Below, piece after piece: positions 4,723 to 36,575 of a DNA stretch of 40,462 bases. The notes below the pieces were generated by a model. The model was not told where the DNA came from and ran no database searches. It saw only the letters and a list, made by a program, of their open reading frames with translations. The DNA comes from Okeania sp. SIO2C9. GTDB taxonomy: Bacteria; Cyanobacteriota; Cyanobacteriia; Cyanobacteriales; Microcoleaceae. Position 1 is the stretch's first letter, and each line of letters begins with the position of its first letter. The translations under genes and the position numbers were made by a program. The stretch covers positions 53,268 to 93,729 of the forward strand of contig NZ_JAAHGO010000035.1 in the NCBI RefSeq assembly GCF_010672455.1, given 5' to 3'.

Positions 4723-5016
4723 ACGACTGATAATGAAAGGCTATCAAAAACTGTCAACGACCCAACAGTAATTCTGAGAATATTTAGAATATAATTTTGC
4801 CTTGGTAAAGCCAGTCTTTATTAAGTCTTAGTTGACCCGCCTAAGTATTAATTTACTACGTTATTTAAGCGAGGGCGACCTTCAGATGTTTCAACAGTAT
4901 GAAGCTCTATCACTAACTATTAAATATTCTATTTGGGTATTGAAAGTGTAGTTAGTCTTAAAAGCTTAAATAACATTTGGTAGTTGGATATTACCCTAGT
5001 AATAGGAGAGTTTTAA
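4723..5016. other. Spacer with no recognisable gene
   Basis: AT-rich sequence between DUF502 and the iscB remnant. I found no reading frame, tRNA or clear hairpin terminator. It may hold decayed 5' sequence of the iscB element, but I could not align any of it. Confidence 0.4.
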
Positions 5017-5080
5017 ATGTTAAATATAAATTCAGTTGCAGCTTGTTTTGGTACTTCTACTCCAGATACTTTGAATATTT

Positions 5081-5209
5081 TTCAACAATGAATAATGAAT
5101 AATGAATAATGAATAATTACCTCTCCTTGAAAAGAAGAGGATTGACTAATTCATGAAATTTTTTTTTATTATCCCCTTAAAAGGGGAGGCTTTAAACCAC
5201 AATTTTTCG
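5081..5209 (-). mobile_element. Family A miniature element, copy 1 (129 bp)
   Basis: Read on the minus strand it follows TTAC (GTAA at 5210-5213 on plus), begins CGAAAAATTG and ends ...CATTGTTGAA. It has a palindromic CCCC/GGGG stem-loop near the TTAC end (within 5172-5187), a second stem (CTCTTCTTTTCAAGGAGAG) near the other end, and AATAATG heptamers. No target duplication is present. Excision restores the iscB codons TGT-AAT-TAT. Confidence 0.8.
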
Positions 5210-5368
5210 GTAATTATCAACCATTAATAATTAAAGCAATGGGTAGAGGTAGTAGACAAATGGTTAAGCCACATAAATATGTTTTTCCTATAACTAAAGC
5301 CAAACTTAGAAAGAAATCATTCTATAGCTTCCAAACCGGAGATACTGTTAAAGCTATAGTAACCAAAG

Positions 5369-5597
5369 TTCAACAATTAATAATTAATAATTAATTATTA
5401 ATTATTACCTCTGCTGGAAAAGAAGAGGATTGACAAAGAGATGAAAATTTTTTCTTTTCTTGGTCGATGGTCGGCCAGCGAGGAGAGCCGTTCTTGCAGA
5501 CCCGCTCCGAATTGCGCCATCCCACCCAACGGGGAAGCTGCGAAGATCGACCGCTTTTTTCTCCTTTAAAGGAGAGACTTTAAACCTTAATTATTCG
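5369..5597 (-). mobile_element. Family A miniature element, copy 2 (229 bp, with internal cargo)
   Basis: It has the same ends as the copy at 5081: CGAATAATTAAGG after TTAC (GTAA at 5598-5601 on plus) and AATTGTTGAA at the other end. Between the two subterminal stems it carries extra GC-richer sequence bounded by GGTCGAT (about 5463) and ATCGACC (about 5546), an inverted pair. Heptamer ATTAATT repeats lie near the left end on plus. Confidence 0.8.
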
Positions 5598-5701
5598 GTA
5601 AAAAATTGGTACTTATGTTAGTCGAGTTGCTGTTATAAAAACTGGAAATTTCAATATTAAAACTCAAACTGAAACAGTCCAAGGAATTAATTATAAGTAT
5701 T

Positions 5702-5870
5702 TTCAACAATTAATAATTAAGAATTAATTATTAACAATTACCTCTGCTTGAAAAGAAGAGGATTGACAAAGAGATGAAAATTTTTTTTCTCTTGGTCGAT
5801 GGTCGGACAGCACAGGTTTCGGAGCCATCCCTCCACCGCTAAAGGAGAGGCTTTAAACTTTAATTATTCG
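5702..5870 (-). mobile_element. Family A miniature element, copy 3 (169 bp, shortened cargo)
   Basis: Ends match the two other copies in the iscB remnant; GTAA at 5871-5874 gives the TTAC flank. The cargo between the subterminal stems keeps the GGTCGATGGTCGG start but not the closing ATCGACC. Excision restores TGT-AAA-CAC in the iscB frame. Confidence 0.8.
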
Positions 5871-6120
5871 GTAAACACTTGCATGAAATAGATGGTTATA
5901 CTTATAATTTCAGTGAATTGGTCAAACAGAAAACTACTGATTTTCTCAAGAAAGTAGTTGAGGTTTTAACTTTACCAGTTCAACTTAGTATATTTGATAC
6001 TTCTGAGCTAACTACTGTTGGTGTTAGTATTACAAAGCAAAGTACAACCAAAAGTTAGAAGGAAAAAGAAAAAGTTTAATGGCACTGAAGGAGAATAATT
6101 AAGTTTGTTTTAAGTTAATA

Positions 6121-6154
6121 GAGGAAAGTAATTTATTTGCTGGTTGCTTTCCTC
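6121..6154. other. Perfect 8-bp stem-loop between iscB remnant and nusB
   Basis: GAGGAAAG (6121-6128) pairs with CTTTCCTC (6147-6154) across an 18-base loop, 62 bases after the iscB remnant's stop. It could be the right-end hairpin of the old IscB insertion sequence. There is no T-run, so a terminator role is unlikely. Confidence 0.45.
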
Positions 6155-6203
6155 GTGGCACTAAATTAAAAATTATAGTGTAGGTCTTCAGCAACTATTT
6201 AAG

Positions 6204-34194: not shown

Positions 34195-34466
34195 CGAATA
34201 ATATGATGTCCGTTGGTATCGTTTGTGTAAAAGTTAGTGTAAATATCTACAGGAAATTTAAGTTTTTTTCTTGCTCTGAAGTCTTCTTCCGTCTTCCTTC
34301 TCTCCTAGATAACTAAAGCCTTCTTCCTGATCCTTACCTGAGAATAGTGATGCTACCGGAATTGATATAATTAAGGTTTAAATCCTCTTTTTTACAGAAT
34401 AAATAAGTAAAAAAAATCCTTTTCCTCAATCCTATCTGTTTTAAGGAGAAGTAATTAATAATTACT
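34195..34466. mobile_element. Family A remnants between DUF928 and cyclase genes
   Basis: CGAATAATATG follows TTAC at 34191-34194 but soon loses similarity. About 34365-34466 is a degenerate copy (ATTAAGGTTTAAATCCTC ... TTTTAAGGAGAAGTAATTAA). Confidence 0.45.
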
Positions 34467-34773: not shown

Positions 34774-35565
34774 TTAATCTTCTCTTTGACAACAATCTAA
34801 TACAGGTGCTTGAATAAATTCTTCCTTCCCCTGAGAATTAGCTGATTCAAATAATTTTTTCCAGTCATCTATTAACTGAGGATTCTCTATATTTAGGCTA
34901 CGAAGTTCTACTATACTTTCTAAAGCATCATACCAAATTCCTTGGGAAGCATAAACAGTTGACAGACTTAGAGGTCTTGCTGTTTTTAACTTTTCAAGCA
35001 AATATCTATCAGCTTGGATACGCTCTATAAAACCTTCACTCAAATAATCTGCTCTTTCTCCTAGAGGGTCATATTCACACCATATTTGTACTCCCCAAAT
35101 GTAGGTTTTTCCAATTTCCAAAGGAGTTGATTTTTCAGCAGGAATCTTAATTTTAATAATTCCTGATTTTTTAGGCAGCTGAAAATCTTCTTCGTATATT
35201 TCTTCCTGTGAAATCCATTCTGTCAGAAAAAACCTTGCTTTTTGAGCTTCTTGATAGGGAGGAATATAGATAAAAAATGTCGGATGTTTAGATAATGTTA
35301 CTCCAATATTATTTCCCGGTATTAGAAGAGGAACAATTTTTTTTTCAGACAAAAGGCATTGCTCACCTCCACGGGTTCCTGAAGGTGTTGTAGTTGGAGG
35401 TGCGCCTCGATCTGGAGGTATATATGTTTGAGAAATTCTCCAGTCATTGCTAATATTTCCGAAGCTAGGTATTGCGAAAGCTGGTCTTTGCACAACTCCA
35501 GCAATACTCAATAACTTCATCACTAAAACAACTGATAAAGTAGTCATTAATAATAGATATTTCAT
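34774..35565 (-). CDS. DUF928 family exported protein
   Basis: 263 residues. A typical signal peptide (MKYLLLMTTLSVVLVMKLL..., probable cleavage after AFA near residue 32) suggests a periplasmic location. The body matches the cyanobacterial DUF928 family: Pro/Thr-rich RGAPPTTTPSGTRGG, PLLIPGNNIGVTLSKHPTFF, ARFFLTEW, YIWGVQIWCEYDPLGERA, and a helical C-terminus (ARPLSLSTVYASQGIWYDAL). Function unknown; in cyanobacteria such genes often neighbour CHASE2 proteins, as here, and the pair may share a sensory or export pathway. The 1-kb repeat-filled gap makes simple cotranscription uncertain. ATG at 35565. Confidence 0.88.
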   Translation of the reverse strand: MKYLLLMTTLSVVLVMKLLSIAGVVQRPAFAIPSFGNISNDWRISQTYIPPDRGAPPTTTPSGTRGGEQCLLSEKKIVPLLIPGNNIGVTLSKHPTFFIYIPPYQEAQKARFFLTEWISQEEIYEEDFQLPKKSGIIKIKIPAEKSTPLEIGKTYIWGVQIWCEYDPLGERADYLSEGFIERIQADRYLLEKLKTARPLSLSTVYASQGIWYDALESIVELRSLNIENPQLIDDWKKLFESANSQGKEEFIQAPVLDCCQRED

Positions 35566-36277: not shown

Positions 36278-36575
36278 CGAATAATTAAGGTTTAAAGGCT
36301 CTCCTTTAAAGGAGAAAAAGCGGTCGTTTGCTTTTGCTTTTGCTTCGCAAAGCTGGCGCAACGCAAAACTGGCGTAACGCAACGCTGACGCGAAACGCGA
36401 CAGCGGAACGGAGTTCTCTCTTCGCAGCTTCCCCGTTGGGTGGGATGGCGAGGTCAAAGGAGCCATATCCAATCGACCAAGAAAAGAAAAAATTTCCTTT
36501 GAGTCAATCCTCTTCTTTTCAAGGAGAGGTAATAATTAATTATTAATTATTAATTATTAATTATTAATTGTTGAA
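36278..36575 (+). mobile_element. Family A miniature element, complete 298-bp copy with cargo
   Basis: Begins CGAATAATTAAGG after TTAC (36274-36277) and ends AATTATTAATTGTTGAA. The subterminal stem CTCTCCTTTAAAGGAGA is near the left end and CCTCTTCTTTTCAAGGAGAGG near the right end. The cargo between them (about 36320-36485) contains GCTTTTGCTTTTGCTTCGC, several AACGC/GCGAC-type motifs, CCCCGTTGGGTGGGATGGCG and ATCGACC. Five ATTAATT heptamers precede the right tip. Confidence 0.8.

Follow-up and report, generated by a model that had tools for sequence, protein, structure and literature searches.

A decayed IscB element in a cyanobacterial genome, interrupted three times beside TTAC by short elements of probable IS200/IS605 type

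How does the remnant of one nuclease gene come to carry three short insertions beside the same tetranucleotide? In a 40,462-nt stretch of the genome of the cyanobacterium Okeania sp. SIO2C9 (contig NZ_JAAHGO010000035.1, positions 53,268 to 93,729; hereafter the window), the answer is very probably a decayed ISC/HEARO element that lost most of its iscB gene and was entered three times, independently, by single-strand insertions of the IS200/IS605 type. The element, composed of IscB and its omega RNA, would have been shortened by an internal deletion before the non-autonomous inserts arrived. At each arrival the guide AAAG at the left end of the insert would pair with TTAC on the minus strand, and a single-strand circle would be joined 3' of that TTAC, so that no target is duplicated; a Y1 (HUH) TnpA presumably catalyses the movement in trans. 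The anatomy, the empty sites, the TTAC flank, the lack of duplication and the size of the family are shown directly by the data below; the circle, the catalysis in trans, the TnpA responsible for it and the order of deletion and insertions are what we infer from them.

A sequence-only reading of the window had placed an iscB remnant at 5017-6058. The remnant is real but forms only part of the element, which extends from 4753 to 6203. The features are listed here in window positions; C157 denotes the intact paralog in the same genome (locus L031).

4753 to 6203, plus strand: whole ISC/HEARO (IscB) remnant, 1451 bp including 527 bp of inserts; both ends common to the C157 copy, and four of four congeners without the element
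4753 to 4994, plus strand: HEARO (omega) RNA, full model length (RF02033, 96.4 bits, gathering threshold 83, model positions 1-211 of 211)
5017 to 5080, plus strand: iscB start codon and first seven codons joined to about codon 313, up to insert 1 (by eye against L031 4253-5704; match starts at residue 313)
5081 to 5209, minus strand: insert 1, 129 bp, left end at 5209 and right end at 5081; empty site in C157
5081 to 5146, minus strand: insert 1 right end, with CAAT guide, hairpin, seven-base repeats and terminal TTGAA
5190 to 5213, minus strand: insert 1 left end, with TTAC target, element start and AAAG guide ahead of the hairpin
5210 to 5368, plus strand: iscB 3' piece a, starting at the target GTAA; 86% DNA identity to C157
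5369 to 5597, minus strand: insert 2, 229 bp; empty site in C157
5598 to 5701, plus strand: iscB 3' piece b, starting at the target GTAA; 90% DNA identity to C157
5702 to 5870, minus strand: insert 3, 169 bp, left-end hairpin not stably predicted by folding; empty site in C157
5871 to 6058, plus strand: iscB 3' piece c to the stop codon, starting at the target GTAA; 83% DNA identity to C157 over 5886-6200
6059 to 6203, plus strand: ISC element right end, abutting ATGAA, the nusB start codon; common to C157 up to ATGAA

The C157 copy supplies the standard of comparison. Its HEARO RNA scores 130.3 bits, and its iscB is open over 483 aa; the protein has RRXRR and HNH domains and reaches 417.9 bits against NCBIfam guided_IscB (cut-off 175). 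Searched against the window locus, this protein matched over residues 313-379, 382-414 and 414-471 with E values of 3e-24, 9e-14 and 6e-20, which apply to a search of that one locus only; the first match runs through insert 1. With three such matches to a paralog that fits guided_IscB, the similarity of the spliced frame to IscB that had been proposed is real. Because about codon 313 now directly follows the start and first seven codons, some 305 codons of iscB have been lost, and it is this internal deletion that makes the automatic alignment of the window with C157 poor in the middle and good at both ends of the element. The window gene keeps its start and C-terminal third only, without the RuvC plus HNH make-up expected of iscB, and the window copy is a remnant of an ISC/HEARO element, not a complete one. 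Like ISC/HEARO elements with IscB it carries the HEARO RNA upstream of iscB and sits directly before ATGA, and it differs from them by the missing codons and by its three inserts.

The genomic site of the element can be seen without it. In all four congeners the DUF502 and nusB genes lie together with no ISC element: in two (G001, G003) about 180 and 230 bp separate the matched blocks at the place of the element, and in the other two (L092, G002:C195; L095, G004:C99) a different insertion lies between the genes. That of G002 contains a 204-aa frame resembling tnpB by eye. The congener sequence at the site reads CAAAA(A)TT|ATGAAC, and the ISC element was therefore inserted directly before ATGA. 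Nine HEARO matches were found in the genome, six of them above threshold: C157 and C265 have long iscB matches, the iscB of C245 is interrupted, C283 and C307 have no iscB match, and the sixth is the window remnant. Four of the six (window, C157, C283 and C307) stop right before ATGA by eye. Start codons directly follow two ISC ends, those of nusB (window 6204) and of a cytochrome oxidase subunit II gene (L031 5829), as expected from an ATGA insertion motif. The C245 gene is broken at about 3880-4160 of L225 (G000:C245) by a stretch that encodes, by eye, a tnpB-like C-terminal part. In Okeania sp. SIO2B3, a relative of the C157 iscB (L170 3001-3882 and L101) is missing residues 114-300 with both parts in-frame, and would therefore lack the HNH domain.

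On the plus strand every insert runs TTCAACAAT...TTCG and is followed directly by GTAA. An own-genome search showed that C157 matches the window on both sides of each insert and so provides an empty site for all three. Compared by eye, its junctions read AATATTA|GTAAC, ACTAAAG|GTAAA and AGTATT|GTAAA, with nothing duplicated at any of them. A single A/T difference separates window and paralog at junction 1, and at junction 2 the window is one base short (GGTAAAAAATTGG versus GGTAAAAAGATTGG). Excision restores the codons TGT-AAT-TAT at junction 1 and TGT-AAA-CAC at junction 3. Lengths of 129, 229 and 169 bp, placement before GTAA without duplication, and restored codons with a one-base deficit at junction 2 had all been read from the window letters, and each agrees with C157. 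The supposed single miniature element is indeed one family, here represented by three members of two sub-types. A match of insert 1 to the Rfam family SNORA32 (25.2 bits, gathering threshold 60) was rejected as chance.

Could a single insertion have been copied locally inside the remnant? All three inserts point the same way, and an internal stretch is common to inserts 2 and 3. Against such copying, each insert has a GTAA and flanks of its own, for each the paralog offers an exact empty site, their lengths and internal sequences differ, and insert 1 is closer to copies elsewhere in the genome (up to 98% identity) than to insert 2 (85% over 85 nt). We consider local copying very unlikely and retain three separate insertions.

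The inserts belong to a large family. A 28-base left-end pattern plus GTAA, with up to two mismatches, gave 432 matches (220 + 212) in the 10.88-Mb genome, and a reversed-pattern control gave none. The flank was counted with a second pattern, matched exactly, that leaves it nearly free (one base, nine positions out, must not be G) and escapes the bias of fetching copies by GTAA. Among the 100 listed of its 159 matches, 89 have the GTAA (TTAC) flank, 10 have a flank that differs by one base, and in 1 an extra stretch precedes GTAA; GTAA occupies 0.44% of window positions. With 89 of 100 listed copies abutting TTAC, the suspicion of a non-autonomous family with this flank was justified. A two-ended set was assembled from 62 left ends in fetched own-genome loci, of which 9 without a recognisable right end were dropped; TTAC adjoins 48 of the remaining 53, a count biased because about half of the loci were fetched with a GTAA-containing pattern. 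A related pattern that includes TTAC, with at most one mismatch, occurs in 11 of 39 genomes, the present one included and with a single match in 3 of the 11; all five genomes of the genus have it.

Outside iscB, too, duplications stay near the chance rate. No 4-nt duplication occurs in the 53 two-ended copies, a 5-nt match occurs once against 0.19 expected, and apart from that one case duplications of 2-10 bases do not exceed the rate in mismatched pairs. Joining the flanks after excision yields frames of at least 90 aa across the joint in 5 of the 53 (95, 440, 328, 287 and 143 aa). We rely on two of these: the 440-aa frame, tnpB-like by eye, and the 328-aa frame, which alone is backed by empty counterparts. 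The latter belongs to a gene named sulfotransferase-like by eye, which carries a 130-bp insert and whose counterparts in two congeners and one paralog are uninterrupted. Once the insert is removed the site lines up with these counterparts, with no duplication; a point against the single-strand reading is that all three read TTAT where the interrupted copy reads TTAC. One further copy is nested in another at an internal GTAA of the host copy, again without duplication. The lack of duplication that the sequence-only reading had noted thus extends from the three window sites to the sulfotransferase-like site and the nested copy.

The window itself contains another copy at 36278-36560 and a decayed one at 34364-34460. 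The other family copies across the window lie in intergenic regions too rearranged in the congeners for presence or absence to be scored. None of seven loci examined held a longer copy with coding content; they were copies whose right ends are unusual, or truncated copies that run on into other sequence. We found no literature on transposable elements of Okeania, and the family may nonetheless be already described.

Is iscB a preferred target? It had been proposed that the family repeatedly targeted this gene. The motif is TTAC, and the remnant without its inserts (639 bp) offers seven sites on both strands, five GTAA and two TTAC. Spreading 329-432 copies evenly over the genome predicts 0.06-0.14 triples; under the assumption that 25-40% of the genome tolerates insertion, the expectation becomes 0.4-2.1, near what is seen. 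Hits also cluster elsewhere: two clear copies and one divergent copy lie within about 670 bp on C201, which as a second triple is weaker than it appears, since its third member is divergent and has TAAT as its flank. According to the text available of PMC2246112, recently active IS elements cluster in cyanobacterial genomes, including that of Trichodesmium. The triple hit in iscB is therefore not remarkable, a preference for iscB as a target is not supported, and the data do not show a link of the inserts to IscB function. That iscB elements attract inserts, perhaps because the nuclease and its omega RNA produce nicks or R-loops, is an idea to which we give little credence. It would account for three inserts in one remnant, and a related TTAC-type element adjoins the left boundary of another HEARO RNA, on C265. 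Yet the family lies inside the element in only one of the six above-threshold HEARO copies (the C307 copy has two left ends at a distance of about 2.7 kb), a scan of L101 and of 12 among 38 iscB loci from other genomes showed no convincing copy within iscB, and the triple itself is near chance under the assumed insertable fraction. We therefore keep to independent insertions at TTAC. The C265 element, at about 2240-2476 of L226 (G000:C265, about 35240-35476), is short, has tnpB-type ends and abuts the first base of the HEARO RNA beside the long iscB frame. It sits at TGAC, not TTAC, and its own left end displaces the original 5' flank of the HEARO RNA. In IscB systems that flank would be the guide.

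What do the ends of the inserts suggest about their movement? Read on the minus strand, each insert has TTAC followed by CGAA.AATT..GTTTAAAG; next comes a hairpin, which folding does not predict in insert 3. Past the variable middle stand CAAT and another hairpin, and the seven-base repeats then lead to TTGAA. AAAG precedes the left hairpin in 56 of 56 copies, a count that the search pattern favours, and in at least 38 of 53 the right stem is immediately preceded by CAAT. Because palindromic repeats often won in a blind hairpin search, the best right-end hairpin followed CAAT there in just 23 of 56 copies. The right ends fold as DNA better than shuffled sequences in all three inserts (z of -3.2, -6.0 and -5.4, for inserts 2 and 3 partly owing to the seven-base repeats), and the left ends do not clearly do so (z of -1.28, -0.54 and +0.39 for inserts 1, 2 and 3); insert 3 has no stable left-end hairpin. 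The reading of these inserts as ordinary MITEs with terminal inverted repeats, moved by a DDE transposase and carrying TTAC as part of the element, has in its favour that they are short, abundant, AT-rich and hairpin-bearing and that Anabaena sp. 90 offers a precedent in its 147 complete or partial MITEs with no evident partner IS in the account consulted (PMC3542288), but it is most improbable, since GTAA stands at all three empty sites of the paralog and, where one copy is nested in another, within the host, and therefore belongs to the target, duplications in the 53 two-ended copies stay near the chance rate, and the two ends are by eye not inverted repeats of each other.

The single-strand reading, with its hairpins and guides, has a well-studied counterpart in IS608 of Helicobacter pylori, a member of the IS200/IS605 family. 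IS608 inserts without target duplication, as the inserts here do. Going by the IS608 description available in PMC5934647, both insert 3' of TTAC and have subterminal hairpins, and in both the left hairpin has AAAG on its 5' side and the right one a four-base guide. The resemblance to IS608 that had been suspected from the TTAC flank thus reaches to the guide and, apart from the left end of insert 3, to the hairpins. The same source gives the IS608 code as left site TTAC with guide AAAG and right site TCAA with guide GAAT. In the inserts the right pair is TGAA with CAAT, apparently a compensatory one-pair variant; the position-by-position scheme behind this is a predicted pairing, based on our reading of the available part of that paper. 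The inserts further differ from IS608 in having neither tnpA nor tnpB and in a right end stretched by seven-base repeats. Their identity as IS608-like non-autonomous IS200/IS605 elements is well supported: anatomy and empty sites point to the mechanism, and the catalysis would follow from it. Three hairpin-ended insertions beside one tetranucleotide in a cyanobacterial IscB element are basically a familiar kind of event, and these inserts leave the known mechanism of single-strand transposition unchanged.

A full-length IS with the same ends and a tnpA gene, which the sequence-only reading had named as a thing to look for, was not seen in the 50 tnpA loci inspected (20 of 20 own-genome Y1_Tnp matches and 30 of 102 in seven other genomes): no tnpA lay between matching ends. 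One of the scans behind this result was imperfect: for the tnpA loci it listed left-end hits only, in the tnpB control L180 it overlooked the right end, and in the control L006 it gave chance hits. Family copies do occur near tnpA in L035, L116 and L121, each with both ends on one side of the gene. Three further loci were rejected as candidate partners: in L036 a broken tnpA lies about 1 kb from a left end of tnpB type, L125 has just a lone stretch that resembles a right end, and L110 has a chance-like TTAC...AAAG hairpin in other sequence. Also rejected were four tnpA-bearing groups whose boundaries, by eye, differ from those of the inserts and have no TTAC/AAAG left ends.

A close known system is that of the palindrome-associated transposable elements (PATEs), ends-only derivatives of IS605 in the part of the PATE paper available to us. 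There one PATE-like sequence is described, against hundreds of copies here, and for the inserts no parent element was seen in the loci inspected.

Another is formed by the tnpB-only, IS1341-like elements of the same genome. Their left end (TTACCGAAAAATTGGGTTTAAAGCCTCGCCC) is almost that of the inserts and they share the TTAC target, but they differ from the inserts in the tnpB frame that some carry and in a right end of the form GAAT-hairpin-TCAA. Their left end plus TTAC gave 95 matches in the genome with up to two mismatches. Of 30 such loci taken from several genomes, 5 have a tnpB frame of 405-461 aa (OrfB_IS605 and TNB domains were matched in the 3 checked), and a pattern search found the GAAT-hairpin-TCAA right end in 12. 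Elements directed to TTAC by an IS608-type code are therefore common here. No tnpA was seen between tnpB-type ends in the loci inspected.

Why might these inserts matter? They are a natural collection, and a very large one, of IS608-like ends for which exact empty sites exist, and in it the evolution of the DNA guide code of single-strand transposition could be tested, and they give a view of an RNA-guided-nuclease element that decays through deletion and through the insertion of its apparent distant relatives. A bolder reading, which we regard as rather unlikely, takes the inserts as guide-coded parasites: site and guide at the right end would have changed jointly from TCAA/GAAT to TGAA/CAAT, the left end would be nearly interchangeable with that of the tnpB elements, and one TnpA could serve several end types. 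On the same reading, the wrecked element may still act through its omega RNA, an orphan that the intact IscB of C157 would serve in trans.

Five elements of about 250 bp (L182, L193, L199, L200 and L205) have tnpB-type left and right ends and no tnpB frame. They retain a conserved stretch similar to the 3' end of tnpB elements, the expected place of a guide-RNA scaffold.
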